This document shows, piece by piece, positions 19,723-64,000 of a stretch of DNA of 64,000 nt; position 1 is the stretch's first letter, and each line of letters begins with the position of its first letter. The translations under genes and the position numbers were made by a program. The stretch is from positions 9,615,001 to 9,679,000 of the forward strand of contig OX387199.1 of assembly GCA_947561715.1 (NCBI GenBank), written 5' to 3'. Under the pieces are notes generated by a model. That model worked only from the letters and a program-made list of their open reading frames with translations. It was not told the origin of the DNA and did no database searches. This stretch comes from Ascidia mentula (lineage: Eukaryota > Chordata > Ascidiacea > Phlebobranchia > Ascidiidae).

Positions 19723-19795
19723 CCCACATTCCCACACATGTGGGAATAACCATCTGTTAATCATTCGCAAAACAATTGCACGAAACAGCGGTGCA
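19723..19795 (+). ncRNA. U2 snRNA 3' end and 3' flank, plus orientation (fragment)
   Basis: CACGGCCCACATTCCCACAC and the following 60 bp match, in reverse orientation, the U2 3' end and flank at about 26437-26514. Only the last dozen or so nucleotides are U2. The rest is downstream flank including ACATGTGGGAATAACC. It ends abruptly at 19795, where minus-oriented array sequence begins. Confidence 0.7.
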
Positions 19796-20213
19796 ACCCG
19801 GGTGTTAGTCGGGTGGACCATTCGCCATGCCGAAAGGTCTGGTTTGCAACCGTGGCCTTCGGTCGCCATCGCAAGCGACAGCAACCGGGTGAGGGGGTGT
19901 TGGATAGGCGAGTTCGCCCGTCCGGGTGACAGACAAGTTATCTGTCGGGTTCGTTTAAAACCGCGCCGAACCTGGGTCAAAAGACTGAGGTCGTGCGAGG
20001 GCACTATGGCCACTCTGGGTATAAAATGGAAGGAACCCAGGTCTAAAACCCTCCCCGAGAAAGAAGGTCGGGGAGCCGACTACCCAAAGGGAGCAGACGG
20101 GGAACCAACGTGGGGGGTTATTTCTGGTAACTACAGGGATGAGTCGGATGATCGCTCACCGACCAGAAGCAGAGCCCTGAAGGAACCACGGTATGCCCGG
20201 GTAGCCAACCCCT
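19796..20213 (-). repeat. 437-bp U2 insert, unit A (truncated at its right-hand partner)
   Basis: Same sequence as 26673-27091, lacking the first 18 bp that adjoin U2 in other units. See the entry at 26655 for the complete form. Confidence 0.8.
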
Positions 20214-20241
20214 TCTTAGCTCTAAAGAGCCGAGAAGCGAT
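20214..20241 (-). ncRNA. U2 snRNA 5' fragment (28 nt)
   Basis: The minus strand reads ATCGCTTCTCGGCTCTTTAG then AGCTAAGA. This matches the conserved U2 5' end up to the start of the branch-site recognition region, where the 437-bp insert begins. Confidence 0.85.
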
Positions 20242-20528
20242 GCCGCAACATCCACTGAGTCCGCAACGTCCGGAAGAATCCGTCTCGCATTTGCTGCCAA
20301 ATTTTATTCCGGTGAAAAATGAAAAAAAACAAAAATTTCCTGGTTTTTTTCCTACCGTTTTTGGCAGGCTATTCAAATTAGTTTGTTCACCACATGACGT
20401 CACAAACGGACCCATGACCCACCTCCCAACCCCCGACACGACTACTCCTGACCGTAACAGGCGAATCCCCCCCGTAGAAACTTCGTTTCTACCTTACGTT
20501 TTGCTCTACATCAGAGGATTAGTAAAAG
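20242..20528 (-). promoter_or_regulatory. U1-U2 spacer with U2 promoter elements (unit A)
   Basis: Upstream of U2 nt 1 (20241). A PSE-like block lies at 20278-20297, with its first base changed (ATCCGTC instead of GTCCGTC). A TGACGTCA site lies at 20395-20402 (-154). The part next to U1 is its 3' flank. Confidence 0.65.
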
Positions 20529-20574
20529 ACGGGGATAGCGCGAACGCAGTCCCCACTAGCAGAAATTGTACGGC

Positions 20575-20609
<35 letters not shown>

Positions 20610-20659
20610 GCTAAACCTAAGTGCAATGGCTAAGCCTCGCCCTGGGCCCACCGCCGGCC
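20529..20659 (-). ncRNA. U1 snRNA 3' fragment, unit A
   Basis: The minus strand contains conserved U1 blocks: CCCAGGGCGAGGCTTAGCCA, CCCCAAATGTGGG, an Sm-type site (AATTTCTG) and GGGGACTGCGTTCGCGCT at the 3' end. The 5' end stops at GGCC, where element A's poly(A) tail abuts. The first roughly 31 nt lie at 26204-26234. Confidence 0.92.
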
Positions 20660-20830
20660 TTTTTTTTTTTTTTTTTTTTTTTTTCAACGGCTCAGATTTG
20701 TGCATCTAAAATCAAAAGTAGATGTCACCCTTTTCATCACTGCCGTCCTAGCAAGGCGCAAAACGACAGGGCGAAAGAGGGACATCGAGTAAAATCAGGA
20801 AAAAAACGGAATGCCCTGTGCCATTATTGG

Positions 20831-23800
20831 TTACGTTACAGTTTCCTCTTTACCATATAAATTTTCTATTTTTTCTAATTCGAAGTTTAATTTCGCTATA
20901 ATTTTGTAAAATAGTTCATTTACTAGGGGTTGTATGTTTTCCGTGTATATGTTTTTGTAGTCAAGGTGTAGTTTTTCCTTTATTATTGTTTTTTTAAATA
21001 TAGCTAGCGTTTTGCGTTCTACTAATGATGTGTGGATTTCGAAAATATTGTACATAATTTCCTCGTTAGTGGCTTTTAGGTTTTTGGAGTGTTTTATTTG
21101 GACATGTATTTTTAGTTTATCTATAATTTGTTTTGTTATTGTGCATTCGGTGAGTAAATGTTTTATATCGTCATTGTTTTCTTTGCAGAATTTGCAATAA
21201 TTAAGTCGCGCTCTTCCGTTTTTGAGTTGGTACATTTGATTTTTCTGCTTGAAAAGGCCCCATTTGAAGCCGTTTTGGGCTGTCATGTAGGCAGCCTCTC
21301 GCTCAAGGTTTGTGAAAAATCTTTTTTGATGTTTGCTTTTATAAAGCAAATTTATCCAGTTGAAGCATGGATTTTCGACGGGATTTGATATAATTCTTTT
21401 TGTTTTTATTAATTCAAAATAAAAGTGGCGCAGTCTAGCCTTTTTCCAGTTAATCTCATTGTTTTGTTCTTTGAGTTCTTTAAATGTATTGATTGTATTT
21501 TGCCATTCAATATTTGGTTTCCATGCGTTGGGTCTGCTATTATCGTAGAGTGTTGGATTAATGATTTTAATTTGTGTTCCTAAGTTATACTGTGCCCATA
21601 ATTTCCATAGTTCGTCGTATGTTTCGCTATTGATAAGATCTCGCAGTTTTTCCATTTGTGTTGCTTTTAATTTTGTTTCAATGTCCGGCATTTTGATTCC
21701 ACCTTGGTCGTAATTTGCAATCATTTTTATTCGTTTGATTGGTTCTATTGTTTTAGGGTGCCATACGAATTTGTATAGAAGCGCATTTATGTTTTTTATG
21801 TTTTGCTTTGTCGGAAATATTGTGCGTGCAATAAACAGTATTTTTGGTATGATAAGTGTATTTATTATTGTGATTTTTCCAAAAATTGTTAGGTGTCTAT
21901 TTTCGTAACTGCATATGATTTTTCTAATGTAGTTTTGAACTTCGTTCCAGTTTGTTATGTTTTCTTTTCCGTTTTCTTTGTATTTGATTCCCAGTATTTT
22001 TACTTCAGGTTTAATGTAAAGAGGAAATTGTTGGTTAATTTTTTGTTTTATATAATTCGACGTACATAAAATTTCAGTTTTTGCTTCATTAATTTTTTGC
22101 CCAGATACACGTTCAAAAACACATAAAGTTTTGAATATTTCCAAGATTTCATCACAATTTGACACGAAAAAAGATGTGTCGTCGGCATATTCTTGGATTT
22201 TTAGTTGTATATTACGATACTTAAAACCAGATATTTTTTCACATTTATTGATATTTTGTGTTAATGTTTCACTTATCATACAATAAAGCAACATACTCAA
22301 TCCACATCCTTGGCGTACGCCTCGTTTTATTTTGATTTTGTCCGTCAACAGTCCGTTTATCATTATTTGACTTGTAATGTTGTTGTATAATATTTTTATC
22401 CATTCTATTGTGTGTGTCTGTATTCTCATTTTTTTTAGTGTTTTAAATAGAAATTTGTGATCAACTGTATCGAAAGCTTTTTCTATGTCTGTGAGGACTA
22501 TTGCTAAATCTGTGTTATATTTTTGTGCTATTTCGATCGCTGTGTTTATGTTGTAGTGTATATGTTGTAATTGTCTTTGATCTAGTCCGCATTTTTGTTC
22601 TAATGATATTTTATGGTTTAGTTCATTTTGGAGTCTTTTAGCTATTGTTTTGCTGAGTATTTTATAGTCTGTATTTAGTAGTGAAATCGGTCTGAAATTT
22701 GTGATCAACGTTTTGTCTTTTCTTTTTGGTATTAATTTTACCACTGCGTTTTTCATATCCTCTGGTAAATGTTTCCTAATTGTAATGTTCGCTGCGAGTT
22801 TGTGGTAATCTTCTTTTATGTCAGCCCAAAAGAATTGGTAGAACTCCGTTGGGAGTCCGTCTAATCCTGGGGATGAATTTTTTTGCATCGTTTTTAACGA
22901 TGCGAGTAATTCTTTTTGGCTAAGAATGATATTGTCGTTTAATGTTTCGTGTGGCACTGGTACTACGCGTTCTAAAAATTCATCTTGTTTCTCACTGTTT
23001 ATTTCCCTCTCTGTGCCCGAGAGGGTAGCGTAAAAGTGCGTAATTTCTTGTATTATTTTTTCTTTCTCTGTTGTTATTTCATTTTGTATTTTTAGTGCTC
23101 GTATCGCAGTATTTTCTTGTTTTTTCGTTTCGATTTTAAAGAAGGATTTATCCGGCTTTTCTTCACTTGTTATTTCTTTTATTCTTGCTCTTATTTTTGC
23201 TCCTTTGTTTTTTTCGTTATCTAGTTGTTTGTTTTGTTTTCGAATTTTAAAGTATTCTACGTTTAAGTCTAAGTTTTCACTGTGTAGTTTTGTCATTAAT
23301 GATTCCAATTTTCTTTGATTCTCTGTGTATATGTTATTTTTTTGTTTGTTTTTTTCTATCGCGAAAATGATTGTTTCTTTTTTTATTTTCTTTTTCAAAT
23401 ATTTCCAATATTCTAGAGTGTCTTCATATTGGTGTTTGTTTTGGCGGAAATCGCTGATGGTGAGTTTTATTTGTGTCACGTATTGTTTGTCTTCGAGTAG
23501 GCTTGTATTAAATTTCCAATAATTTTTTCCCCATTTTGCGTTGTTTCCTGTTTTTAAGGTGAGTGTCGGTGCTAAATTGTGATCTGTAAATGTTGTTGTT
23601 TTGTGTGTAAAAGTTTTAATTTTGTTTATCATTGGAAGGTTACAGTAAATTCTGTCAATTCGGGATGCGGATTTTTTTTGATTTGTATGTAAATACTTTT
23701 TTGTTTGGATATAATTGTCTAAAGGCGTCTTGTAGATTGTATATTAATTTGGTTTCTGACCACTGTTTCACGTCTTGTCTTTCCTTTGATGATTGTACTA

Positions 23801-24305
23801 AAGTGTCTATTTTGTTACATGTAAAATTAAAATCGCCGCCAATTATGATGTTTTGCTTTATTTCGTTTTGGTTGAGGTCTGTGTGTAGATTTTGTATTTG
23901 TCTTAATCTTGTTATTGCGGCGTCATGTGTATTTCCAGATTTGAAGTAAATGTTGTATATTGTAAATGTTTCTGTTTTATTCTCGTTTCGTGTCTCTAAT
24001 GTTATTTTTTGAATGTGGTTAATTTCAATGATTTTATGGGTTATGTTTTCATATAAGTTTTTCTGTCTTAATATTATTGCTGTTCCGCTGTGTAGTCTGT
24101 TTTGTTCCGGTTGTGTTGCATTTGCGTATATTTTGTATTTGTTTTTTGATGCCCATTTTTTAATTTTGTCGTAGTCAATTTTGTGTGTTTCTTGAACAAG
24201 CGTAATATGTATCTTTTCTTTTTCGATCAATTGGTCAATGTTTTGTGTATTTCTGTTTAGCCCGTTGACGTTTACTGTTAGAATTTTGAGGTTTTCTGTC
24301 GCCAT
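20831..24305 (-). pseudogene. ORF2 of element A: AP-endonuclease and reverse transcriptase, frameshifted
   Basis: Starts MATENLKILTVNVNG (ATG at 24305). The APE domain covers about the first 220 codons (QETHK, GGDFNFT). One extra A in a run at about 23673 breaks the frame (part 1 ends at 23655), and the downstream 933-codon frame resumes at 23632. That frame carries the APE end (FTDHN), RT (SSPGLDGLPTEFY, RPISLLNTDYKILSK, DIEKAFDTVDH, RGVRQGCGLS, EYADDTSFF) and a C-terminal CCHC (CKFCKENNDDIKHLLTEC). APE nicks the target and RT copies the RNA there. Identical damage in element B shows the two were duplicated after the mutation. Confidence 0.85.
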
Positions 24306-24406
24306 TGGATGTGTGTTGAAAAAAAAGGACGTTAACAGACGTTAATATTTTGATTTTTTAGGGAAAGGAAGTGGAAATGGATAGGATAGGGTGAAAGCCC
24401 GCAACG

Positions 24407-25702
24407 CTACCTTCTTCTTTCTTTCTTTCTTCTATTTTTCTTTGTTCCAGAATTGGAGCTGGAATTCGATGCTGTGGAAGGTTGATCTTCCTTTTTTCTT
24501 TTCTTGTCTTGGTCAGTTGTGCCAATGTTAAATTTGCTTCCCATTATTATTGCTTTTTTTTCTGCAGCTTTTTGTGTGGTTAGAGGTGAACGTATTGGAG
24601 TCATCGGGTTTGCGTTATTTGCTTTGTTTCTGCAGGGAGAGAGAAAATCTTTGGGCAGAGGGTTTTGGATAGTTTTCGGGGTTCCGTATGAAGAGTTATC
24701 AGATTCTGTATTGGTCATGATTTTTAGATCCCCGGATTCGGTAGATTTCATTGGCTCGACGGATTTTTCTTCTTCTATTATACCAACTTCTGAGGGTTGG
24801 TTCTGTTTTTCGGTTTCACTTTCTTTTTCTTGTTCGTTTTCTGTGGGTAATATTTGTGCTTTATTTAGTTTCTCCATTTTTTCTTCATGAATTCTTATTC
24901 TATTCAGGATTGGGGACAGGTCCTGTGTCTCTGTTACTATTCCTTGTCCTATGGGGGTGGATCTCTTGGGTAGTGGTGGGAATTTAAAGTCAAAGGAGAG
25001 CTTGGCTTGGCTTTGGGTTTTGCTAATTTTGGATACTTGTGGGCACCATCTGCCTCTGTGGCCTCTTTCTCCGCATATCGGGCAAAGATCCTTTTTTGGG
25101 CATTGTGACGCCCAATGGCCTCGTTTGTTACAGAGAGTACAGGCTGGGCCGAAACCCTCTCCAGGTTTAGCTATTTGGATGTTGTGGCCGAAGATTTTGG
25201 TTATGTATTTGATGTTTTCCTCCCTAAAGTCTTCTACAAATAGGTGCACATAACCGTTGTGTAGGTTTTTGTACTTTTTGTACGTAAGGAACCTGTGTTC
25301 GGCATACTTTCCCCATTTCAGGTCATTGACGGCTTTTTCAAAATGCTCTTGGGTCATTTCCAGGGGGACAGGGTATAAGGTTAGTTGGGTCCTGGGTTTC
25401 GGTGGCTTTTTCGCTTGTAATATTAAGCTAAAATGTTCGGTCATCTCGAAATCTGTGGGTTCTTTTAGTTCTTCTAATAGTTTTTCTCTTGTTTCCATTG
25501 CCAATTCGATGTTAGAGTATGTCACTTTGTATATCGATTGCGCTTTGTTAATGGATTGTACTCCACAGAGGAGATCGTTATATTTTTTTAGTATAGTCTG
25601 AAATAGTTCTACAAAGTCGTCCAGGGGATAATGATCTTGATTCAGGATTTGAATATATACTGACCGGTCTTCTTCTAAGAAGGTTTCTTTAGACACTGTC
25701 AT
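24407..25702 (-). CDS. ORF1 protein of element A (nucleic-acid-binding, two CCHC knuckles)
   Basis: 431 codons, intact. The N-terminal half (to about residue 190) has no named motif visible but is conserved between elements (RTQLTLYPVPLEM, EHRFLTYKKYKNLHNGYVHL). Two zinc knuckles follow: CTLCNKRGHWASQC and CPICGERGHRGRWC. The C-terminal third is acidic and Ser/Thr-rich with a Lys/Arg-rich end. By family it coats element RNA in a ribonucleoprotein. It lies 100 bp upstream of ORF2 in the same transcript. Confidence 0.85.
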   Translation of the reverse strand: MTVSKETFLEEDRSVYIQILNQDHYPLDDFVELFQTILKKYNDLLCGVQSINKAQSIYKVTYSNIELAMETREKLLEELKEPTDFEMTEHFSLILQAKKPPKPRTQLTLYPVPLEMTQEHFEKAVNDLKWGKYAEHRFLTYKKYKNLHNGYVHLFVEDFREENIKYITKIFGHNIQIAKPGEGFGPACTLCNKRGHWASQCPKKDLCPICGERGHRGRWCPQVSKISKTQSQAKLSFDFKFPPLPKRSTPIGQGIVTETQDLSPILNRIRIHEEKMEKLNKAQILPTENEQEKESETEKQNQPSEVGIIEEEKSVEPMKSTESGDLKIMTNTESDNSSYGTPKTIQNPLPKDFLSPCRNKANNANPMTPIRSPLTTQKAAEKKAIIMGSKFNIGTTDQDKKRKKEDQPSTASNSSSNSGTKKNRRKKERRR

Positions 25703-26203
25703 TGAGTTTTCGTGAAGAGTAGCGGGGGCAAAGTTTAGTGTTTGTGGTTATTTTTCGGTATGTTACAAAAGAACGAGGAAAGGCGTTATAAGTTGACAGT
25801 AATTTGGTCTCCGCGACAAACAAACACGCAGGAAGTTAATTATGTAATTACGTCAGGAAGGAGGAGGGGGAGCCTCTGGGCACGACTCTGAAAGGAGTGT
25901 TCCCGGAGGGTCGCCTTCCTACTTTCTCTCAACAATGAGAAACAGTCTCCTTCGTTTCTACCTCAGAGAGCAATGAAACGTTGGGAGGATGTTTCTTGTG
26001 AGCTCTCTTTAGAGCACAAGGTTGGGTCCAGGAAACAAGTTCCTGGCTAGCAAGCTGACTGGCACAGGTAAACTGACACAAAATACGTCTAGACTGTTAT
26101 AATATGGCTTTATCGCGAGTTAAATCAGGCAACAAAAATGAGCATGCACAAAAAACAACAGAGCACACGTGGTTTTGATACTTCCTGCAATAACCGTGAA
26201 ATT
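25703..26203 (-). other. 5' untranslated region of element A
   Basis: Non-coding. Contains short inverted repeats such as GAGCTCTCTTTAGAGC and AGGAAACAAGTTCCTGGCTA. An internal promoter is possible but unproven; read-through from U1 is the alternative. Confidence 0.5.
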
Positions 26204-26234
26204 GAACCGGTGAAGGCCCCCGTCAGGTAAGTAT
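26204..26234 (-). ncRNA. U1 snRNA 5' fragment, unit A
   Basis: The minus strand begins ATACTTACCTGACGGGGGCC, the U1 5' end with its 5'-splice-site-pairing ACTTACCTG. It is interrupted after about 31 nt by element A. Confidence 0.9.
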
Positions 26235-26654: not shown

Positions 26655-27091
26655 AGTGGTGTACTAGTACCAACCCGGGTGTTAGTCGGGTGGACCATTC
26701 GCCATGCCGAAAGGGCTGGTTTGCAACCGTGGCCTCCGGTCGCCATCGCAAGCGACAGCAACCGGGCGAGGGGGTGTTGGATAGGCGAGTTCGCCCGTCC
26801 GGGTGACAGACAAGTAATCTGTCGGGTTCGTTTAAAACCGCGCCGAACCTGGGTCAAAAGACTGAGGTCGTGCGAGGGCACTATGGCCCCTCTGGGTATA
26901 AAATGGAAGGAACCCAGGTCTAAAACCCTCCCCGAGAAAGAAGGTCGGGGAGCCGACTACCCAAAGGGAGCAGACGGGGAACCAACGGGGGGGGGTTATT
27001 TCTGGTAACTACAGGGATGAGTCGGATGATCGCTCACCGACCAGAAGCAGAGCCCTGAAGGAACCACGGTATGCCCGGGTAGCCAACCCCT
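26655..27091 (-). repeat. 437-bp insert within U2 (complete form)
   Basis: Replaces the segment between U2 GCTAAGA and CTGTTCTTCTCAG, including the GTAGTA branch-site recognition motif. It is GC-rich with several strong hairpins (CTCCCCGA...TCGGGGAG, GACAGA...TCTGTC). No credible frame is present: the 109- and 132-codon frames overlap each other and cross U2. There is no poly(A). It may be a truncated or internally deleted copy of another U2-specific element. Confidence 0.6.
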
Positions 27092-27537: not shown

Positions 27538-27707
27538 TTTTTTTTTTTTTTTTTTTTTTTTCAACGGCTCAGATTTGTGCATCTAAAATCAAAAGTAGAT
27601 GTCACCCTTTTCATCACTGCCGTCCTAGCAAGGCGCAAAACGACAGGGCGAAAGAGGGACATCGAGTAAAATCAGGAAAAAAACGGAATGCCCTGTGCCA
27701 TTATTGG

Positions 27708-30700
27708 TTACGTTACAGTTTCCTCTTTACCATATAAATTTTCTATTTTTTCTAATTCGAAGTTTAATTTCGCTATAATTTTGTAAAATAGTTCATTTAC
27801 TAGGGGTTGTATCTTTTCCGTGTATATGTTTTTGTAGTCAAGGTGTAGTTTTTCCTTTATTATTGTTTTTTTAAATATAGCTAGCGTTTTGCGTTCTACT
27901 AATGATGTGTGGATTTCGAAAATATTGTACATAATTTCCTCGTTAGTGGCTTTTAGGTTTTTGGAGTGTTTTATTTGGACATGTATTTTTAGTTTATCTA
28001 TAATTTGTTTTGTTATTGTGCATTCGGTGAGTAAATGTTTTATATCGTCATTGTTTTCTTTGCAGAATTTGCAATAATTAAGTCGCGCTCTTCCGTTTTT
28101 GAGTTGGTACATTTGATTTTTCTGCTTGAAAAGGCCCCATTTGAAGCCGTTTTGGGCTGTCATGTAGGCAGCCTCTCGCTCAAGGTTTGTGAAAAATCTT
28201 TTTTGATGTTTGCTTTTATAAAGCAAATTTATCCAGTTGAAGCATGGATTTTCGACGGGATTTGATATAATTCTTTTTGTTTTTATTAATTCAAAATAAA
28301 AGTGGCGCAGTCTAGCCTTTTTCCAGTTAATCTCATTGTTTTGTTCTTTGAGTTCTTTAAATGTATTGATTGTATTTTGCCATTCAATATTTGGTTTCCA
28401 TGCGTTGGGTCTGCTATTATCGTAGAGTGTTGGATTAATGATTTTAATTTGTGTTCCTAAGTTATACTGTGCCCATAATTTCCATAGTTCGTCGTATGTT
28501 TCGCTATTGATAAGATCTCGCAGTTTTTCCATTTGTGTTGCTTTTAATTTTGTTTCAATGTCCGGCATTTTGATTCCACCTTGGTCGTAATTTGCAATCA
28601 TTTTTATTCGTTTGATTGGTTCTATTGTTTTAGGGTGCCATACGAATTTGTATAGAAGCGCATTTATGTTTTTTATGTTTTGCTTTGTCGGAAATATTGT
28701 GCGTGCAATAAACAGTATTTTTGGTATGATAAGTGTATTTATTATTGTGATTTTTCCAAAAATTGTTAGGTGTCTATTTTCGTAACTGCATATGATTTTT
28801 CTAATGTAGTTTTGAACTTCGTTCCAGTTTGTTATGTTTTCTTTTCCGTTTTCTTTGTATTTGATTCCCAGTATTTTTACTTCAGGTTTAATGTAAAGAG
28901 GAAATTGTTGGTTAATTTTTTGTTTTATATAATTCGACGTACATAAAATTTCAGTTTTTGCTTCATTAATTTTTTGCCCAGATACACGTTCAAAAACACA
29001 TAAAGTTTTGAATATTTCCAAGATTTCATCACAATTTGACACGAAAAAAGATGTGTCGTCGGCATATTCTTGGATTTTTAGTTGTATATTACGATACTTA
29101 AAACCAGATATTTTTTCACATTTATTGATATTTTGTGTTAATGTTTCACTTATCATACAATAAAGCAACATACTCAATCCACATCCTTGGCGTACGCCTC
29201 GTTTTATTTTGATTTTGTCCGTCAACAGTCCGTTTATCATTATTTGACTTGTAATGTTGTTGTATAATATTTTTATCCATTCTATTGTGTGTGTCTGTAT
29301 TCTCATTTTTTTTAGTGTTTTAAATAGAAATTTGTGATCAACTGTATCGAAAGCTTTTTCTATGTCTGTGAGGACTATTGCTAAATCTGTGTTATATTTT
29401 TGTGCTATTTCGATCGCTGTGTTTATGTTGTAGTGTATATGTTGTAATTGTCTTTGATCTAGTCCGCATTTTTGTTCTAATGATATTTTATGGTTTAGTT
29501 CATTTTGGAGTCTTTTAGCTATTGTTTTGCTGAGTATTTTATAGTCTGTATTTAGTAGTGAAATCGGTCTGAAATTTGTGATCAACGTTTTGTCTTTTCT
29601 TTTTGGTATTAATTTTACCACTGCGTTTTTCATATCCTCTGGTAAATGTTTCCTAATTGTAATGTTCGCTGCGAGTTTGTGGTAATCTTCTTTTATGTCA
29701 GCCCAAAAGAATTGGTAGAACTCCGTTGGGAGTCCGTCTAATCCTGGGGATGAATTTTTTTGCATCGTTTTTAACGATGCGAGTAATTCTTTTTGGCTAA
29801 GAATGATATTGTCGTTTAATGTTTCGTGTGGCACTGGTACTACGCGTTCTAAAAATTCATCTTGTTTCTCACTGTTTATTTCCCTCTCTGTGCCCCAGAG
29901 GGTAGCGTAAAAGTGCGTAATTTCTTGTATTATTTTTTCTTTCTCTGTTGTTATTTCATTTTGTATTTTTAGTGCTCGTATCGCAGTATTTTCTTGTTTT
30001 TTCGTTTCGATTTTAAAGAAGGATTTATCCGGCTTTTCTTCACTTGTTATTTCTTTTATTCTTGCTCTTATTTTTGCTCCTTTGTTTTTTTCGTTATCTA
30101 GTTGTTTGTTTTGTTTTCGAATTTTAAAGTATTCTACGTTTAAGTCTAAGTTTTCACTGTGTAGTTTTGTCATTAATGATTCCAATTTTCTTTGATTCTC
30201 TGTGTATATGTTATTTTTTTGTTTGTTTTTTTCTATCGCGAAAATGATTGTTTCTTTTTTTATTTTCTTTTTCAAATATTTCCAATATTCTAGAGTGTCT
30301 TCATATTGGTGTTTGTTTTGGCGGAAATCGCTGATGGTGAGTTTTATTTGTGTCACGTATTGTTTGTCTTCGAGTAGGCTTGTATTAAATTTCCAATAAT
30401 TTTTTCCCCATTTTGCGTTGTTTCCTGTTTTTAAGGTGAGTGTCGGTGCTAAATTGTGATCTGTAAATGTTGTTGTTTTGTGTGTAAAAGTTTTAATTTT
30501 GTTTATCATTGGAAGGTTACAGTAAATTCTGTCAATTCGGGATGCGGATTTTTTTTGATTTGTATGTAAATACTTTTTTGTTTGGATATAATTGTCTAAA
30601 GGCGTCTTGTAGATTGTATATTAATTTGGTTTCTGACCACTGTTTCACGTCTTGTCTTTCCTTTGATGATTGTACTAAAGTGTCTATTTTGTTACATGTA

Positions 30701-31182: not shown

Positions 31183-31283
31183 TGGATGTGTGTTGAAAAA
31201 AAAGGACGTTAACAGACGTTAATATTTTGATTTTTTAGGGAAAGGAAGTGGAAATGGATAGGATAGGGTGAAAGCCCGCAACG

Positions 31284-33077: not shown

Positions 33078-33108
33078 GAACCGGTGAAGGCCCCCGTCAG
33101 GTAAGTAT
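33078..33108 (-). ncRNA. U1 snRNA 5' fragment, unit B
   Basis: ATACTTACCTGACGGGGGCC and 11 further nt on the minus strand; nt 1 is at 33108. Confidence 0.9.
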
Positions 33109-34411: not shown

Positions 34412-34447
34412 TTTTTTTTTTTTTTTTTTTTTTTTTAATTGTACGGC

Positions 34448-34482
<35 letters not shown>

Positions 34483-52175: not shown

Positions 52176-52325
52176 GGATAAGGATTGAGATAGAAAAAAA
52201 AAACACAAATTTTTTTTTTTTTTTTTTTTTTTTAACAGTTAATTAATACGGTATCATTTACAGGTTTGGTTTGTTAGCTATTTAAAGAAAAGTAGAAATT
52301 GTGAAAGTAAGTATAATTTGAGCGA

Positions 52326-54238: not shown

Positions 54239-54269
54239 GAACCAGTGAAGGCCCCCGTCAGGTAAGTAT
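54239..54269 (-). ncRNA. U1 snRNA 5' fragment, unit D
   Basis: ATACTTACCTGACGGGGGCC plus about 11 nt. Nt 1 is at 54269. Confidence 0.9.
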
Positions 54270-54693: not shown

Positions 54694-55129
54694 AGTGGTG
54701 TACTAGTACCAACCCGGGTGTTAGTCGGGTGGACCATTCGCCATGCCGAAAGGGCTGGTTTGCAACCGTGGCCTCCGGTCGCCATCGCAAGCGACAGCAA
54801 CCGGGCGAGGGGGTGTTGGATAGGCGAGTTCGCCCGTCCGGGTGACAGACAAGTAATCTGTCGGGTTCGTTTAAAACCGCGCCGAACCTGGGTCAAAAGA
54901 CTGAGGTCGTGCGAGGGCACTATGGCCCCTCTGGGTATAAAATGGAAGGAACCCAGGTCTAAAACCCTCCCCGAGAAAGAAGGTCGGGGAGCCGACTACC
55001 CAAAGGGAGCAGACGGGGAACGAACGTGGGGGGTTATTTCTGGTAACTACAGGGATGAGTCGGATGATCGCTCACCGACCAGAAGCAGAGCCCTGAAGGA
55101 ACCACGGTATGCCCGGGTAGCCAACCCCT
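54694..55129 (-). repeat. 437-bp insert within U2, unit E
   Basis: Same boundaries as in units B and C, with a few substitutions and one base shorter. Confidence 0.8.
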
Positions 55130-55575: not shown

Positions 55576-55950
55576 TAATTCTATTTTATTCGGGCGGGCT
55601 AACAGCCGCCACCACGAATATCACACAAAATTGTTAAAGGAAAGGAGGTAAATGGGGAGAAATTCATTAAAAAGAGGGCGGAAAGTAAACAAAAGGGTAC
55701 AATAATTGGCGAGACGAAAAGGCACAATGAAAAATACAGTTACAGACACCGAGGGCGCTGCACGAAAAAATACACAAATGAAAACGACCGGAAATTACGA
55801 AAAATTTTACAGTTGCAGACGACAAGGACGCTGCACGAGAAAAAAAAAAAGACAATACACTACTGGGGACGACAAAAGTACGGAGTAATTCAGAGTGTTA
55901 CAGACGACAAATTTTATATGATGTATGTGTTGGTTGCCCGGGGGATGGGT

Positions 55951-58900
55951 TTAAATTAAATATTGGACGACGTCGGCCAGGACGCCTTCGAGGTCGGCAT
56001 TTGACCTGCTCCGTTGCAAAGTAAGTCGAAAGTTCATAGTGTGTTTCAGGGTCCGGATCAGGTGTTGGGGTAAGTTAATTAAAGGGCGGGGGTCGTGTTT
56101 AATGCGATTGCGAGTTTTCCAAATGGTGTGGGTGAGGGATGTATTTAACAGAGCTACAAGGGTTGAGGAGTATGGGTTGTCTGACAGGGGGGTTTTAGGG
56201 AAAGTTAGGTAACTGGGGGTGTCGAAATATGTGAAAGTGTTGTTGAGTAGGGAGTTGAGGGTGTTTTTAACAAGGGATAGAATGGGTTGTATCGCGGGAC
56301 AGGTATGAAAAAGGTGGCTAAAGGTTTCCAGGGGGTAATTGCATAGGTGGCAATTGGGGGTCTAAGTCTAGGGGAAGGTAGGACTTCTGACATTTCAGGG
56401 GGAGGATTTTGTGGACTAGTCTATAGTTGAATGTTTTGAGGTAATTGGGAAAGATGGGGTGATGAATTTGGGACCAGTCGGTGTGGAAAAAGGGGTGCTG
56501 GGAATCATTTATTAATCGGGTGTAAAGGGGTTTGGATTTGGGACAAAGCAGTTCTTGTTCGGAGGGACTAAAGGAATTGATCAGGGAGAGAATATGTTGA
56601 TAGTGAGTGGAGGGTGTTGTGGCGTGGGGGAGGTTATTTCTTAGTCTGAGTCTGTATAAATTTGATAGGGGGAGGCCGAGGTTATATTCAAAGAGGGAGA
56701 GTTGGGGGGTTGTTGGGGTGTCCAAGATTCGATGTTTGTAGTAATTTTTGACAGAAAAGAGAATGGATAGGTCAGCATAGAGGGGTAGATTTGCCGCGCC
56801 GTAACCACCAAGGTCACGGCGGGCTGCCAAGATGTTAATAGGCAAGGTTGGTAGGTTTGGGCCTCCGACAAAGCTTGCCACAATGCCGTCGACCCGCTCT
56901 CGTTGCTGGGGTGGTAAGGGGTAAATTTTAGCAAGGTACGAAATTTCGGGAAGGAGGATAGTTTTTGAAAGAATGCATTTCGAATCGAAGGTGAGAAAGG
57001 GGTTGCTAATAGTTTTGGCGCGGGATTGTAAAGAGGTAATTACTTGGCGCCAAGCCGCTTTTATTACTGAGGGTGCGCCGATGGGAATATTTAACGGTGT
57101 AATTTTATCCGGGTTCCATTTAATTTGATTAAAAAGGGGGTCGTCTGAGAGAGGGTGGAGGATGGCAATTGCTTCTGTTTTGGCGGGGTTCAGTTTAAGA
57201 CCGGTGAATTCAGAAAATTTATTAATAAGTGACAGGGCGTTACAGAGGGACTGCCGATGCGCCACCACGAGGGTGACGTCATCGGCGTAAGCAATTGCCT
57301 TGGGAATATTGCGGCATGGCACAGGGGTCGAAATGATAGAGGGGGTGTTTTGGAGGGCAACGAGTAACGGGTCTAAAGCAATCAGGAAGAGGTTCAGACT
57401 AAGGGGGTCTCCTTGTCTGACACCTCTCCTGATGGGAAAATCCCTTGTGGCGAAGCCATTGACGAAGACCCGGGAGTGGGCGCTGGAGTGAAGAGCAGAA
57501 AGATATTGAGTAAAGAGAGGGGGAAAGCGTTTAAGATTTAATTGGAAGAGTAACCATGGGAAGGAAATAGAGTCGAAGGCTTTTTGGAAATCAAGAGAAA
57601 CGAAAAACGAATTTGAATTAATTGAAGAAGCGTGAGAATATAAATCGCGAAGAAGTGTGGTTGCGTCTGAGGTAGAGGATCCGGGGGTAGCAAATTGGTT
57701 GTGGGATAAAATTAAAGAAATAAAGGGCTTGATACGGAGGTTAAGGATTTTATGAAGGATTTTGAGGTCGGTATTAAGTAAAGAAATAGGGCGGTAATTG
57801 GTTAAAAGGGTGGGGTCGTTTTTCTTATGAATGATTGTTATATGGCCGAGATTAAATTCCAATGGGGTGTAGGCGTTTTGGTAGGAGAAGTTGAGGGCTT
57901 GGGTAAGGTCGGACCCGATTAGGTCCCAGCAACGAGTATAAAACTCGATGCTGAGCCCATCGGGCCCGGGGGTTTTGTTAGGGGAAAAGAGGGAAAGGGC
58001 TTTTTTTACTTCGGACATTGTGATGGGGGATGAGAGGGAATCTAGGTACTGATCAGGGATTAATTTGGAAGGAAGTTGGGCAAATTGGTCACTGGGGGGC
58101 GGCAAGGGAAGTTGTTGGGATGTGTATAAGTCTGCGTAAAATTTTCGTGTGTGGTCTAATATTTCCTTGGGGGTTGTTAGGGGGAGTCCATGGGGGTCTT
58201 GAAATTCGAGGATGGGGGGTTTGCGACGTGAAGGGAAAAGCTGGGAATAGAGAGTTTTATCGGCTATGTTTTTGAATTGGGGATCGGAGGAGAGGGATTT
58301 AATAAGTGAGGAGCGGGCATTGGAAAGGTATGTATTATTTAGGGACTTTTTGAGGGATTGGAAATGGGCTAAGTTTTGTGGGGTCGGGTAATCATTCACT
58401 TTTTGGCGGGAAGATTCGAACTGCTGGTGAAGGAGGAGGGTTTCGGTGCGATGGAGTTGGGCTAAACGTTTTGAATGGGATTGGAGGAGGGATTTAAATT
58501 TAGTTTTAAGGGTAAGCCAGAAGTCCATGGGATTTGGGTGGAAAGGTCCTAGGGTTTGCCAGAGGGGATAATGTTGGGAGAGATCATGTTGAAAGTCAGG
58601 GTCTAGGAGAGTGGATGTGTTATTCTTCCAGGAGCCTTTGCCCCTGGGAGGAGAGGAAATGATGTTGAGGGTGAGGGTAACTAGATCGTGGTCGGAGAAG
58701 GGACATGGAGTAAATGTATGCTGCTTAGGGATTAATGGAGGGGAAATATAAACTCTATCTATTCGGGATTGGGTACCAGGGGCGCGACGGGAAAATTGAC
58801 AAAGGGAGGGATGAAGAGTGCGGAAGGAGTCTTGGAGGTTAAAGGTGGATAATAAATTAATCAAAGGGGGGCTAGGCCGGCGTGACTGTGCAGGGGGATA

Positions 58901-59377
58901 TTTGTCAAGGGTGGGGTTTAAGACGCAATTAAAATCGCCGGCCAAAATTAAGGGGTGGGGTGAAGTTAAATAAGGGTAGAGGGAGTCAAAAAAGTTATTT
59001 CGAAGGGTAAAATTCTGGGAACCGGAGGGAGCGTAAATATTAACTATATGGAAGGTATGGGTTAGGGTTGAGATGTCGGCCGCAATAATGCGACCGGCAG
59101 AGTCAGAAAATGAATTGAGAATTTGAAGTGTGGAGGAGTTTAGAAGAACTGCGACACCACCTTGGGCATAGCCTGTCGGAGGTGCCGAGTTTAAGAGGAT
59201 GGGGCCAGAAGTCCATTCGGACTTCCACAGGGATTCGGTTTGGGGAGTAGAGTGAGTTTCTTGGAGGCAAAAAAGGTCAAAGTTCAAAGAGGAAAGGTAC
59301 CGGAACAGGGCTCTTCTCTTAGGTGCCTGGCCTAGGCCGTTAACATTAAGGGTGCAAATTCGTAAAAAGGACGCCAT
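55951..59377 (-). pseudogene. ORF2 of element E: AP-endonuclease and reverse transcriptase, one C-terminal frameshift
   Basis: Starts MASFLRICTLNVNGLG (ATG at 59377; an upstream in-frame Met at 59401 adds 8 residues). APE motifs: NVNG, QETHS, AGDFNC, SDHD. RT motifs: KTPGPDGLSIEFY, YRPISLLNTDLKILH, LDFQKAFDSISF, RRGVRQGDPLS, AYADDVTLVV. The open frame stops at 56318. A one-base change in a C run near 56360 puts the conserved C-terminal CCHC (CHLCNYPLETFSHLFHTC) and about 110 further codons, ending at 55951, in another frame. RT and APE are intact, so damage is limited to the tail. Confidence 0.85.
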
Positions 59378-59420
59378 TTTATTCATAATACACAAATACA
59401 CAAAAGGGGGGGTGGTTTAT

Positions 59421-59666
59421 TTAATAAAAGGTTGAGTTAAAGTCATTGGGAATTTTAGCTTTACAGGTACAAACTACTTGTTCCCCGGGCATTATATTAT
59501 ACGTGACGCCACAAGTGCAGCTTATTAGCAGGCGTTGGCACCTTTTATTGGTGCAACGAGACGGGCTAAGGTAGGCTTCTTCGGGAGCCCAAGTGCCACA
59601 GCGGCATTTAAAATGTGCTGTGCTGCATAAACATGTTATCTCCTTGCCTGCATATGCACACAGCAT
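59421..59666 (-). CDS. Small cysteine-rich ORF between ORF1 and ORF2 of element E
   Basis: 81 codons, overlapping the end of ORF1 by 31 bp in another frame and ending 44 bp before the ORF2 start. It has 14 Cys in several C-x-C and C-x(4)-C pairs (CLC, CRCG, CTNKRC, CTCG, CTCK), suggesting zinc binding. It could be a separate protein or the frameshifted C-terminus of ORF1. Confidence 0.5.
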   Translation of the reverse strand: MLCAYAGKEITCLCSTAHFKCRCGTWAPEEAYLSPSRCTNKRCQRLLISCTCGVTYNIMPGEQVVCTCKAKIPNDFNSTFY

Positions 59667-61228
59667 GACGTCTTCTTTTGGGGAGACGGAGTTGGACTTT
59701 TCTTGCGTTTGCGGGATTGAACTTTTGTGAACCCGTCTTCGTTCCGCTTATTTGGTTTGGGTGTGGATGACGCCATTGGTTGGTTGCGTACATCCATTGA
59801 ACTGGTTGAAGTTGGGGCGGTATCAGCCAACACGGGCTGCAGGATACTGCGACGTACCGCCTCTGGTGTCTTGATGTTGTTGACAACATTGGACGTTGGG
59901 GCGCTAGAGGGTGATTGCGCCTCTGAAGTCTTGTTGTTGTTGTTGCTGGGAGTAGTAGCGGTGTTAGCCAACTCGGGCTGCTGCATACTGCGTTGTACCG
60001 CCTCTGGTGTCTTCTTTTCTTCGCCAACATTGGGCGTTGGGGCGCTAGAGGTTGTAAGCACCTCTGTAGACTTCGCGCCGCTTCCCGTGACGTCAGCTGT
60101 CACGGTTGGCGGCGCATCTTCAGTGGCAACAGCTGCCACATCTTTCTTATTCACAGGTGTGACTTCACGTGTCACACCTGGAGTTGTAACGGCTTTATCG
60201 GCCGTTTCTGGAGCCTTCGCATTTTGCGTCGGGGCGGCCTTATCAGCTGCCTCTGAGGTCTTCGCATTTTGCGTCGGGACGGCCTTATCAGCCGCCTCTG
60301 GCGCCTTCTCGTCGAGCGTTGCGACGAGCGCACCTGCGCTCGCCAACGCCGACTCGCTCTTATCTTTAACTTGCTGTTCTTCAGCACCTGCGTCTTTCGT
60401 TGCGGCTGCAGCCGCTTTTCGCTCTTCTGCATGTTTTGCGAAACTTGGGCACTCGCGTTTAACATGACCCATTTCGTGACAAAAGTCACACTTCTTGGGC
60501 TGTCCTTCGTACATAACCTCGATCATTTTCTTGCCCAGACGCAGGCGCTCGGGAATATGGTTTTTGGCCAAAATTGAGCTCTTCATTATAATGACGCGCT
60601 TGCCACAATAGACGCTTTCGTCGTCATAGACTTTCCACCCCTTTTTGACTGGGGCGAACTTCGACATGTATTCTAACAATGCCGACATTTTAATACGTGG
60701 GTGCACCTTCGACAAAAACACCCGTATTTCGTCGTCGCAGTGGGCGTTGGCGTAGACTGCCTTGCCACTAGCTCTAATTGCGGCAGCGAGCTCTTTGGCT
60801 TTGTCAGCGGAAGAGCAGTTAAAGAGCACCTTTCCATTCGGGTAAGGGATAACGCCCTCCAAAGCCCGAATGGTCACTTTAAGCTGTTTTAAAAGTTTGT
60901 ACAGCTCTGGCTTCTTAAGCCCAGGGTTAAAGCGGGCTTCAACATCGAGATTGGGGTCGGTTGCAAAGGGGTCAACCGCTTGCACATTTCCGGCCGAGAC
61001 AACAGGCCGGGAAGCTAACGCTTGCGCGTAATTCATAATTCTTGCTTGGTTTTGTGCGTCTCCACAACTTACGCACGGGCTGGCCACTGGCAGCTCACCT
61101 CTCCTATCAAACAAATAGCAGCCCTTACAAGGGCTGGGCTGGCTTTGCACAGTGGCCTCAGTTAGTCTAGGACAACAGATCATAAAACAGAAATCTAAGG
61201 ACGAAAACTTGATACTGCTTGAAATCAC
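59636..61228 (-). CDS. ORF1 protein of element E (CCHC zinc knuckle)
   Basis: 530-codon frame. The more likely start is MNYAQALASRPV near 61036. Upstream codons include a CxxC-rich stretch (CKGC ... CVSC) that may be leader. A folded nucleic-acid-binding region precedes one knuckle (CDFCHEMGHVKREC). The second half is a low-complexity Ala/Thr/Pro/Lys tract with repeated APTQNAKTSEAADKA-like units and a basic end (KVQSRKRKKS). No similarity to ORF1 of A-D beyond the knuckle. Confidence 0.78.
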   Translation of the reverse strand: MISSSIKFSSLDFCFMICCPRLTEATVQSQPSPCKGCYLFDRRGELPVASPCVSCGDAQNQARIMNYAQALASRPVVSAGNVQAVDPFATDPNLDVEARFNPGLKKPELYKLLKQLKVTIRALEGVIPYPNGKVLFNCSSADKAKELAAAIRASGKAVYANAHCDDEIRVFLSKVHPRIKMSALLEYMSKFAPVKKGWKVYDDESVYCGKRVIIMKSSILAKNHIPERLRLGKKMIEVMYEGQPKKCDFCHEMGHVKRECPSFAKHAEERKAAAAATKDAGAEEQQVKDKSESALASAGALVATLDEKAPEAADKAVPTQNAKTSEAADKAAPTQNAKAPETADKAVTTPGVTREVTPVNKKDVAAVATEDAPPTVTADVTGSGAKSTEVLTTSSAPTPNVGEEKKTPEAVQRSMQQPELANTATTPSNNNNKTSEAQSPSSAPTSNVVNNIKTPEAVRRSILQPVLADTAPTSTSSMDVRNQPMASSTPKPNKRNEDGFTKVQSRKRKKSPTPSPQKKTSCCVHMQARR

Positions 61229-61309
61229 TGCTGATAGATAGACTCGAATAAATTGCTATATCGCCGAATAGAGGTCAGAACACGTATGCTTGCCTTATTC
61301 AAATAGAAT

Positions 61310-61547
61310 TTTGCTGCCAAATTTTATTCCTGTGAAAAATGAAAAAAAAAAAAAATTCCTGGTTTTTTTCCTACCGTTTTTGGCAGGCCATTCAAATTAG
61401 TTTGTTCACCACATGACGTCACAAACGGACCCATGACCCACCTCCCAACCCCCGACACGACTCCTCCTGACCGTAACAGGCGAATCCCCCCCGTAGAAAC
61501 TTCGTTTCTACCTTACGTTTTGCTCTACCTCAGAGGATTAGTAAAAG
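61310..61547 (-). promoter_or_regulatory. Partial U1-U2 spacer (unit F)
   Basis: Begins inside the distal half of the PSE (TTTGCTGCC). TGACGTCA at 61414-61421. The proximal promoter and U2 are gone, replaced by element E's 5' end. Confidence 0.7.
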
Positions 61548-61593
61548 ACGGGGATAGCGCGAACGCAGTCCCCACTAGCAGAAATTGTACGGC

Positions 61594-61628
<35 letters not shown>

Positions 61629-61678
61629 GCTAAGCCTAAGTGCAATGGCTAAGCCTCGCCCTGGGCCCACCGCCGGCC
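61548..61678 (-). ncRNA. U1 snRNA 3' fragment, unit F
   Basis: Same U1 segment broken at GGCC. Poly(T) 61679-61701 follows. Confidence 0.92.
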
Positions 61679-64000
61679 TTTTTTTTTTTTTTTTTTTTTT
61701 TCTCACGGCTCAGAGCGTGTGATATCTAAAATCAAATATAGATGTCACGGTTTTCATCACTGCCGTCTAAGCAAGGCGCAAAGCGACAGGGCGAAAAACG
61801 GACAAAGGAAATAATTGTGCCATTATTGGTTACGTTATGTTTTCACATTCAATATTCACTTACAATCGTCATTAACATTCATTTCGCGAAATATTAATTT
61901 CCTCTTTACTCTCTCGCAATCCCGTGTAAGTTTATGTGGTTTTTCAATTTTGTTATGATTCGGTATAGTATTTTGTTGATTGTTTCATTTGTATCTTCAA
62001 AATATGTATTGTTATAATCTAACTTTTGTTTTTCCTTTATTATAGTTGTCTTGAAAAAGGCCTGGGCTTTTACACTTAAAATAGGTTCGTTTTCGTCAAA
62101 AATATTATACATAATTTCCTGTGGATCGAAGCGTGTTTTTACTCCGTATTCTGTGATGATGTGTTTCTTTAACTTTAGAATTATGTTTTCTGTTGTTTGG
62201 CATTGTGTGAGGAGGTGCGTTATCTCATTGCTATTTGTTCTGCAAAATTTGCAGAAGTTTAATCTTGCTCTACCGTTTTTTAGTTGGTACATATTGTTTT
62301 TTTGTTTAAATTTTCCCCATTTAAAACCATTGTGTGCTGTGAGGTATGCCTTTTCTCTTTCGTCGTTTGTAAATATTTGTTTGTGTTTTTTGTTTCTGTA
62401 CAGTACATTGATCCAATTGAAATTAATATTATCTGACGGGTTCGATATTATTTGTTTTGCCTTTATGAGTTCGAAATAAAAGTGCCTCAGTTTTGCTTTT
62501 TTCCAGTTTATGTCGTTGTTTTGTTCATTTAGTGTTTGATAAGTGTTTATGATTTTTCTCCATTCTTTATTTGGGTTCCATGCTTTTGGTGTCGCATTAT
62601 TGTAGAAAGCTGATTTAATTTTTCTCATATGTATTCCTAGGTTGTATTGTCCCCAACTTTTCCAAATTTCGTCTATTGTATCGCTGTTTCGCATGTCTCG
62701 TATTTTTTCCATATGAGTTGCTTGTATTTTGTTAGATATGTCTGGCATTTTAATTCCGCCTTGTTTGTAATTTGCTATTAGTTTATTTCGTTTTATCGGT
62801 TCGATGGTTTTAGGGTACCACAGGAAGTTAAATAGCTGTGTATTTAAAGTTTTTATTATATTTTCTGTGGGTTCCGACGTTCGTGCAATAAACAGGATTT
62901 TCGGTATTATCAATGTGTTAATTATTGTTATTTTTCCAAAGATTGATAGGTTTCGTTTTTCGTGGCTACATATTATTCTTCGAGTGTGTTCAATTATCTT
63001 GTTCCAATTTAAGCTCATGTTATTTCCGTGTTGTTTGTATTGTATTCCCAGTATTTTAACCTCGGGTTTGTAGTAAAGAGGAAATTTTATTCCTATTTTA
63101 CACTTCATTGCATTCGAAATACACAATATCTCAGTTTTCGACTGGTTAATTTTTTGGCCCGAGGCCTTTTCAAATTTTTCGAGTATTTTGAAAATTTCGT
63201 TAATTGTCTCGATGTTTGAGACGAAAAAAGTTGTATCGTCTGCATATTGTTGGATTTTTAACATAATCTTCCGATATTTAAAGCCAGTTATTTCATTACA
63301 CTTATTGATTTTTTGCGTCAGATTTTCATTTATAACACAGTATAAGAGCATGCTTAAACTACACCCTTGTCTTACTCCATTTTTAATTTCAATTTTTTCT
63401 GATAAGGCTCCGTTAATAATTATTTGGCTTGTTATATTCCTATATATGATTTTTATCCATTTGATTGTGTCTTTGTTGATTTTTAGTTTTTCAAGTGTTT
63501 TATATAGGAAGTTGTGGTCGACAGTGTCAAATGCTTTTTCGATATCTGTTAAGAAAATCGCGAGTTCTTTATTATAGGTTCGGGCAATTTCTATCGCGGC
63601 GTTTATATTGTAGTGGATATGTTGGATCTGTCGTTTGTTCAATCCACATTTCTGCTCGAGAGAGATTTTTTCGTTTAGTTCATGTTGTACCCGTTTTGCG
63701 ATGCTTTTACTAATTATTTTGTAGTCTGCGTTTAGGAGCGAAATCGGTCTATAGTTTTTGATTTGTGTTTTATCTTTATTTTTTGGTATAAGTTTTATTA
63801 TCGAGTTTTTCATGTCTGTGTCTAATTGTTCTCGCAAAAATATGTTTGTGACGTGTTCGTGAAAGTCTTGCTTTAAGCTGTGCCAGAAATGTTGGTAAAA
63901 TTCCACCGGTAAACCATCAAGCCCCGGGGCTGCATTTTTGTTCATTTCTTTCATTGAGCTTTCTAGTTCTTTTTCACTCAGGTATGGGCTAAAGTCTTTT
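61679..64000 (-). mobile_element. Tx1/L1-like retrotransposon F, inserted in U1 (cut by window edge)
   Basis: Poly(A), a 3' untranslated region sharing the TAGATGTCAC...CATCACTGCCGTC block with element C, and the 3' 2.1 kb of ORF2. The most diverged member of the A-D group. Confidence 0.82.
61906..64000 (-). CDS. ORF2 protein of element F, reverse transcriptase part (partial)
   Basis: Open from the right edge to the stop at 61906. RT motifs AAPGLDGLPVEFYQHFW, RPISLLNADYKIISK, DIEKAFDTVDH, NGVRQGCSLS and QYADDTTFF, then CCHC CKFCRTNSNEITHLLTQC. The Met at 63954 is internal; the frame continues upstream beyond the window. No damage seen. Confidence 0.88.
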   Translation of the reverse strand, partial: KDFSPYLSEKELESSMKEMNKNAAPGLDGLPVEFYQHFWHSLKQDFHEHVTNIFLREQLDTDMKNSIIKLIPKNKDKTQIKNYRPISLLNADYKIISKSIAKRVQHELNEKISLEQKCGLNKRQIQHIHYNINAAIEIARTYNKELAIFLTDIEKAFDTVDHNFLYKTLEKLKINKDTIKWIKIIYRNITSQIIINGALSEKIEIKNGVRQGCSLSMLLYCVINENLTQKINKCNEITGFKYRKIMLKIQQYADDTTFFVSNIETINEIFKILEKFEKASGQKINQSKTEILCISNAMKCKIGIKFPLYYKPEVKILGIQYKQHGNNMSLNWNKIIEHTRRIICSHEKRNLSIFGKITIINTLIIPKILFIARTSEPTENIIKTLNTQLFNFLWYPKTIEPIKRNKLIANYKQGGIKMPDISNKIQATHMEKIRDMRNSDTIDEIWKSWGQYNLGIHMRKIKSAFYNNATPKAWNPNKEWRKIINTYQTLNEQNNDINWKKAKLRHFYFELIKAKQIISNPSDNINFNWINVLYRNKKHKQIFTNDEREKAYLTAHNGFKWGKFKQKNNMYQLKNGRARLNFCKFCRTNSNEITHLLTQCQTTENIILKLKKHIITEYGVKTRFDPQEIMYNIFDENEPILSVKAQAFFKTTIIKEKQKLDYNNTYFEDTNETINKILYRIITKLKNHINLHGIARE

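Follow-up and report, generated by a model that had tools for sequence, protein, structure and literature searches.

The small nuclear RNA (snRNA) genes U2 and U1 of the ascidian Ascidia mentula lie together in a tandem array, and the stretch of DNA described here (the window: 64,000 nucleotides, C52:9615001-9679000; assembly searched, 195.8 Mb in 79 contigs) is the decayed edge of that array, which runs to several hundred copies. The array very probably hosts two site-specific retrotransposon systems of the kind without long terminal repeats (non-LTR): an element in U2 and a long interspersed nuclear element (LINE) in U1, the latter inserting by a nick between nucleotides (nt) 32 and 33 with loss of 5-8 bp of target, and its lineages recombining into mosaics (we put the probability of this reading at about 0.88). 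A preliminary description of the window had compared the array to a landing pad for retrotransposons, as ribosomal DNA (rDNA) is for R1 and R2. That comparison is well supported, with a LINE of the apurinic/apyrimidinic (AP) endonuclease type apparently cutting U1 and an element with a restriction-like endonuclease apparently cutting U2. It did not tell the known U2 system apart from the U1 system, and it missed the mosaicism.

The U2-U1 array and its interrupted edge

The array proper, a tandem of 915-bp units (U2 then U1, minus strand), lies to the right of the window. For the units at C52 9.7047-9.7444 Mb, identity to a single reference unit is 99.8-100%; 44 uncut U1 copies with zero mismatches lie to the right of the window on C52 among the matches listed, and many units sit on other contigs (e.g., C54, C55 and C56). 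One uncut U1 lies 4.7 kb beyond the window's right end, and from about 26 kb onward uncut units follow one another. Assembly-wide there are 464 U1 3′ segments and 465 U2 3′ segments (each with at most two mismatches), and the patterns for the uncut sites have 451 matches in U1 and 448 in U2.

The window presents a different picture. An exact-string search returns the seven U1 3′, four U1 5′, five U2 5′ and four U2 3′ segments that had been counted before, finds no U1 or U2 reading across its insertion site, and places all of the counted segments on the minus strand with U2 before U1, as had been proposed; the exception to the single orientation is an inverted U2 fragment at 19718-19799. The U1 and U2 models of Rfam do recognize the segments: ten matches exceed the gathering score, six of them to U1 (94.3-96.6 bits, against 143.6-149 for intact copies) and four to U2 (92-101.2 bits, against 161.8), and a partial U1 duplicate at 34434-34538 reaches 52.5 bits, below the gathering score. 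The claim that every gene copy is interrupted thus holds within the 44-kb stretch for which it was made and fails for the assembly, given the hundreds of uncut sites. The breakpoints recur at fixed positions of the unit: U1 breaks off at unit position 488 or 490 and resumes at 496, and U2 breaks off at 28 or 21 and resumes at 41.

A LINE at one site in U1

The U1 element family comprises seven insertions of 5.5-5.7 kb in the window and its continuation (copies A, B, C, D, F, G and H), one on contig C55 and one on C59. At the 3′ border of each, poly(A) gives way to U1 at nt 33, and four relics farther left (C52 9381k, 9395k, 9436k and 9489k) show an A-run that meets U1 at nt 33 or, in one case, nt 35. 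When this border is taken as given and 11 A followed by the U1 3′ part are searched for, 14 junctions turn up: one each on C55 and C59 and 12 on C52, among them the duplicate behind copy C. The reversed control gives no match. In the Rfam model of U1, the cut site falls between the C and the A of GAUCA (nt 32/33) in the apical loop of stem-loop I, the loop that binds U1-70K.

The 5′ side is equally regular. The junction set consists of the 11 insertions that adjoin the U1 5′ part (C59 and the copies at 9378k, 9393k and 9488k are outside it), and all 11 begin at the 5′ terminus of the element. Six copies (C, D, F, G, H and C55) join U1 after nt 25, and five (A, B and the relics in L023, L024 and L025) at about nt 27; those in L024 and L025 have a fourth 5′ sequence in common. 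Because the 5′ side joins at nt 25 or about 27 and the 3′ border is nt 33, each insertion has removed some 5-8 bp of U1, and no duplicated target base is found at the family insertions. Copies A and B, 99.9% identical, are a single insertion copied by segmental duplication rather than two insertion events; the duplication spans about 6.9 kb (window 20242-33993) and carries A and B with their U2 inserts.

The family is also confined. When the genome was searched with the protein of its second open reading frame (ORF2), 40 of 538 candidates were scored and 42 matches listed; among those listed, all with at least 43% identity lie at C52 9.378-9.70 Mb, on C55 or on C59, and below that level come dispersed elements (31-33%) and a cluster on C71 (26%). 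The poly(A) border was determined in 13 copies, and each of them adjoins U1; none is a Keno-type insertion at U2 nt 39. Nor was a Dada-type DDE transposase with a 6-7 bp duplication found in the U1 LINE, which encodes an endonuclease and a reverse transcriptase (RT) and loses 5-8 bp.

Proteins, relationships and constraint

Pfam finds PF03372, PF00078 and PF00098 in the proteins of the U1 element, and the features typical of the L1 group are present: AP endonuclease and RT in one ORF2, a CCHC-type ORF1 and poly(A). ORF2 matches human L1 ORF2p at 1e-67 and R2 at 2e-19, and L1 is its best solved relative (11 matches, no R1, CR1 or RTE RT being named among these). Both ORFs are open in C, D, F, G, H and C55, and ORF2 is split in A and B. 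The ORF2s of the six open copies form one clade with an approximate likelihood-ratio support (SH-aLRT) of 100, in a tree of 56 rows without clade names (the first 45 of 120 listed homologues, three proteins from the Utopia side and eight from the locus); the tree was built by a quick method, its long branches are flagged, and the placement of element E in it is unsure. In the protein collection, 243 relatives of ORF2 passed and 120 were listed, and the U2 element has eight, all of them without genomic context. A search for relatives on viral contigs gave 63 pattern matches for U1 ORF2, of which none was confirmed.

Three ORF2 lineages are 56-61% identical to one another. The proportion of synonymous differences between them (pS) is 0.71-0.75, near saturation, against 0.23-0.27 for nonsynonymous differences (pN), which points to long divergence under constraint.

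Mosaic structure

The copies are mosaics. Scanned in 100-bp and 300-bp windows, pairs of elements swing along their length between 96-100% identity and mostly 50-85%. In the 5′ third there are three lineages: a (A and B), b (C, G, H and C55) and c (D and F). Inside ORF1, at about 1270-1370 (numbering of copy C), C and C55 switch to the A/B type; near the ORF1-ORF2 boundary, at about 1850-2000, D joins the A/C type and F joins H; and at about 4395, C departs from A, D and C55. Trees were made for four segments and seven copies (B being omitted as a copy of A), and the approximately unbiased (AU) test rejected the trees of the other segments in 11 of 12 comparisons (p <= 0.006).

The shared blocks are 99-100% identical, which implies recent exchange. 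The C55 insertion, itself a mosaic with an A-run of 44, sits between units that are 100% identical to the reference unit, so mosaics appear able to move. On C59 the 3′ side of the insertion (A-run 68) is a unit 99.8-100% identical to the reference, with a U1 3′ part at 99.8% and an uncut U2. A-runs are 21-30 in the edge copies and 10-20 in the relics.

Proposed mechanism and alternatives

The following course of events would account for these features. An L1-group-related LINE would use its N-terminal AP-type endonuclease to nick U1 on the bottom strand, between the C and the A of GATCA (nt 32/33), and its poly(A) RNA would be primed at the nick for target-primed reverse transcription. The full-length 5′ end would then be joined to U1, at nt 25 in lineages b and c and at about nt 27 in lineage a and the fourth, relic type. 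Transcription from the U1 promoter just upstream would give U1-element co-transcripts, and this could explain why the 5′ junction is specific to the lineage. The Utopia-like element of U2, described below, would insert at model nt 39 by means of a C-terminal restriction-like endonuclease. Because one target nucleotide in one array is shared, the U1 lineages would meet and recombine there, and unequal exchange between units, conversion or template switching would yield mosaics of ORF1, ORF2 and 3′ ends. Inserted units would be purged from the interior of the array by unequal exchange or homogenization, and copies at the edge would escape. The listed insertions are indeed mostly at one edge of the array; at the right border no match to the U1 or U2 elements occurs across 25.6 kb. 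A bolder version, in which this is the first LINE known as U1-specific, a set of old lineages confined to one snRNA array, transcribed from the promoter of the U1 gene they interrupt and evolving mainly by shuffling modules (ORF1, ORF2 and 3′ end) between lineages that a single target nucleotide brings together, is close to an even bet, leaning toward doubt.

Much of the regularity could in principle arise by copying alone. If a few ancient, possibly non-specific insertions had been multiplied by unequal crossing over, site specificity would be illusory, and such copying does occur: A and B stem from the duplication of a single inserted stretch (99.9% identity), and two copies of a 436-bp insert in U2 are 100% identical. 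However, the other U1 insertions are distinct mosaics that differ in their 5′ ends, their 3′ ends and their A-runs (10-68), the 5′ junction varies with the 5′ lineage, the C55 and C59 insertions stand on separate contigs next to uncut units, and the relic zone on the opposite strand holds more divergent copies at the same U1 border; we regard multiplication of this kind as very improbable. Mosaics might also be chimaeras created by an assembler that joined reads of different copies, a natural concern in a repetitive array with a scaffold gap. Against it, copy C on C52 and the C55 copy share the b-to-a switch in ORF1 and are 98-100% identical up to about 4395, the blocks in common extend over kilobases, and in six copies neither ORF is closed at a breakpoint, which makes chimaeras an improbable source of the pattern.

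Two questions concern the route rather than the outcome. The mosaics could owe their origin to template switching in reverse transcription and not to DNA exchange in the array: the lineages are co-resident, their RNAs may be co-expressed, and blocks of 99-100% identity would be young switches. The A/B pair, which independently demonstrates duplication of an inserted stretch, speaks for exchange between units, and template switching is a substantial possibility without being the favored one. The other question is the 121-bp piece of U1 behind copy C, which may be a tandem duplication or a 3′ transduction, the latter produced when a U1-resident donor was read through. The two U1 copies are 100% identical, and duplicating the A-run with U1 nt 33-129 would give the same layout; yet the second A-run (25) exceeds the pure part of the first (21), although slippage also changes A-runs, and an A follows U1 nt 129, the last base of the piece, which is what polyadenylation of an RNA at that point would leave. 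Tandem duplication is accordingly a realistic explanation of this one piece, rated somewhat short of even odds.

Other observations weigh against the reading of two site-specific systems with recombining U1 lineages, or blur its numbers. The assembly has a gap of 200 N within the array (C52:9714843-9715042). Subtracting uncut U1 sites from U1 3′ segments leaves 13 (464 - 451), whereas 15 interrupted U1 3′ segments can be listed, namely element E and the 14 poly(A) junctions with the duplicate included; the counts are therefore accurate to within a few units. No U1 3′ flank appears in the stretches read at four ORF2 regions (9398k, 9425-9428k, 9444k and 9514-9517k): at 9425-9428k the similarity stops in non-U1 DNA within the 1.2 kb read, and the other three are fragments or stretches that stop short of the 3′ end. 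Element E ends on the same U1 bases and yet belongs outside the family, though it is a single copy and chance is possible. Segment 3 of the mosaic analysis fails to reject the tree of segment 4 (AU p = 0.079), and the more conservative Shimodaira-Hasegawa (SH) test leaves two further comparisons unrejected. C59 cannot count as a clean array contig, since the 436-bp insert is present there in three copies. Finally, a self-cleaving ribozyme like that of hepatitis delta virus (HDV) at the 5′ ends, as in R2, was considered and dropped: Rfam gave none in window 19700-64000 (E up to 1) and our own descriptor, used without a positive control, none at eight element 5′ ends, which together make a weak test.

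The insertions in U2

By its target and its domains, the larger element in U2 appears to be Utopia-like, that is, of a known kind. It is 7.5 kb long, and a second copy at C52:9684178-9691655 is 98% identical and has one frame of 1602 amino acids (aa). Pfam finds the RT and no AP domain, the RT matches R2 at 5e-66, and the protein presumably carries N-terminal zinc fingers and a C-terminal restriction-like endonuclease motif, which were recognized by eye. At the 3′ junction the element meets U2 at unit position 41, which is nt 39 of the Rfam model (TCTGTTCT). Three copies with a full 3′ end stand at U2 nt 39, as found by a pattern that presupposes this site together with direct reading; the opposite-strand copy at 14923-19715 is without that junction. 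The search of the genome with the Utopia-like protein scored 40 of 348 candidates, and among the matches listed those with at least 66% identity lie at C52 9.30-9.69 Mb; the one exception is a 66% fragment at C52:13.79 Mb. Within intact units, U2 also contains a 153-bp tail of the element.

The second kind of U2 insertion is a 436-bp non-autonomous insert. It has seven junctions at the U2 site genome-wide (at most three mismatches), and diverged copies on other contigs make it less confined. Its folding is better than that of 100 shuffled sequences (z -3.3). Blastn (1e-10) finds no similarity between the insert and the Utopia-like element of this locus. A short internally deleted element (SIDE) of the R2 type is described as sharing its ends with a full-length partner (PMC3414825); the 436-bp insert shares no ends with the Utopia-like element here at that threshold and was not classed as a SIDE of that element, though it may have another partner. 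A tRNA-derived short interspersed element (SINE) was rejected, there being no tRNA in the window. At C59:14813-35302, three 436-bp copies (one partial) accompany the U1 insertion, in what is either another disturbed edge of the array or a second haplotype.

An inversion junction lies at window 19718-19800, where a plus-strand U2 3′ flank meets a minus-strand 436-bp insert. The relics to the left of it, which begin at 9.30 Mb and make up the left flank of the array, are mostly on the plus strand; the array is on the minus strand.

Element E and neighboring features

Element E is another AP-endonuclease LINE, outside the U1 clade. Its 3′ end joins U1 within nt 30-33 without poly(A), its 5′ side joins unit position 867, and about 540 bp of the array are missing. 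It aligns to a satellite-associated family on C71, where a cluster of AP-endonuclease LINEs at 13.27-13.73 Mb (L041, L042 and L043) has nine members among the matches listed, 26% identical to U1 ORF2. In L043, the sole stretch between elements that was read, a LINE copy adjoins a 281-bp tandem satellite, and the cluster is possibly another target-specific family. The 5′ leader of the C71 family contains a sequence (L041:2007-2052) that resembles the stem-loop of histone 3′ untranslated regions (23.8 bits, gathering score 34). A histone target for this family was rejected, because the stem-loop does not reach the gathering score and is embedded in sequence alignable to element E.

Elsewhere in the window (feature coordinates are collected in Table 1), adjacent ORFs at 11766-13191 match an Ulp1 protease and a SWIM zinc finger and resemble a DNA transposon. 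A 433-aa ORF at 2059-3357 has an integrase core domain (rva_4) and is flanked by 20-bp tandem repeats at 1602-1920 and 6267-6517.

Table 1. Array segments and inserted elements, in window coordinates
Feature	Positions	Strand	Basis
Utopia-like element, opposite strand, 92.7% identical, last bases lost, joined to U2 unit nt 184; left array flank	14923..19715	+	
U2 3′ fragment and flank (unit 184-265), inverted; junction of relic zone and array	19718..19799	+	unit alignment
436-bp insert copy, ending after ~414 bp at the inversion junction	19800..20213	-	
U1 3′ part from nt 33 and downstream unit spacer (unit 496-915)	20242..20660	-	unit alignment, Rfam U1
U1 LINE copy A; 5′ lineage a, ORF2 lineage I, ORF2 in two frames; poly(A) at low-coordinate end	20661..26207	-	
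436-bp non-autonomous insert in U2, between unit nt 28 and 41	26656..27091	-	
U1 LINE copy B; 99.9% identical to A, segmental duplicate	27539..33081	-	
436-bp insert in U2, second copy, 100% identical	33530..33965	-	
U1 nt 33-129 and second A-run, between copy C poly(A) and U1 3′ part	34413..34533	-	
U1 LINE copy C; 5′ lineage b, lineage-a ORF1 end, ORF2 lineage I with divergent last quarter; ORFs open	34534..40178	-	
ORF2 of copy C, 1159 aa, AP-type endonuclease and RT	34756..38235	-	Pfam
ORF1 of copy C, 429 aa, CCHC zinc knuckle; second knuckle by eye	38344..39633	-	Pfam (first knuckle)
U2 from unit 41 (Rfam model nt 39) to 3′ end, spacer and U1 nt 1-25	40179..40628	-	unit alignment
Utopia-like element in U2; frame broken once	40629..48101	-	RT by Pfam
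U2 nt 1-21, flank upstream of the Utopia-like insertion	48102..48122	-	exact strings
U1 LINE copy D; 5′ lineage c, ORF2 lineage I; both ORFs open	48542..54244	-	
435-bp copy of the 436-bp insert in U2	54695..55129	-	
Element E, other AP-endonuclease LINE outside the U1 clade	55580..61309	-	Pfam, tree, unit alignment
U1 LINE copy F; 5′ lineage c, ORF2 lineage II; runs on to C52:9682386	61680..64000	-	

Relation to known systems and significance

In the 28S rDNA array, R1 and R2 are two non-LTR systems that disrupt the genes and lie in the orientation of the gene. The U2-U1 array resembles this, with two distinct non-LTR systems in one tandem array, disrupting genes in gene-sense orientation. 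It differs in the genes concerned and perhaps in the lineage mosaics at one site. The Tx1 clade includes Keno, an element of snRNA genes.

Other published parallels are elements of U2. Utopia is a U2-specific non-LTR element with a restriction-like endonuclease, and U2 nt 39 is the target of both Utopia and Keno (Kojima and Jurka, 2015; PMC4640811). On the upstream side of Utopia, that paper gives no U2 fragment in Phytophthora and 20-bp duplications in reptiles. The element described here matches Utopia in the 3′ junction at U2 nt 39 (TCTGTTCT), in the combination of zinc fingers, RT and restriction-like endonuclease in one protein, in a target that is not duplicated and in the keeping of several kinds of insertion in one U2 array; it differs in that the array is shared with U1 and a U1-specific LINE and in that U2 nt 1-21 are kept upstream. 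Keno is like the U1 LINE in being an AP-endonuclease LINE specific for an snRNA gene, but its target is U2 nt 39 and not U1 nt 32/33. For U1, the precedent is Dada-U1 (PMC3706591), described as a DNA transposon with a DDE transposase that inserts in zebrafish U1 genes at GCGAAT with 6-7 bp duplications. It too is site-specific in U1 snRNA genes; in contrast, the element here has an RT, poly(A), target loss and another U1 site.

Site-specific non-LTR elements, U2 targeting and U1 DNA transposons have thus been published already (PMC4640811, PMC3706591, PMC8869645). Titles and abstract openings in the open-licence literature, a search that does not extend to subscription journals or Repbase, yielded no U1-specific non-LTR element and, among U1-specific mobile elements, only the Dada DNA transposons. 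The U1-specific LINE is apparently undescribed, and the shuffling of its lineages is the least expected part.

If the reading given here is true, U1 joins the short list of RNA genes that are parasitized by retrotransposons, and the U1 LINE together with a known hunter of U2 would make a second pair like R1 and R2, on a different gene. The U1 target loop is strongly conserved in the Rfam consensus, so the endonuclease might work on the U1 genes of other animals, a possibility that bears on site-specific gene insertion. The contrast between the edge and the interior would make it testable how a tandem array sheds insertions, and the young mosaics would do the same for the idea that a shared landing site drives the modular recombination of selfish elements.

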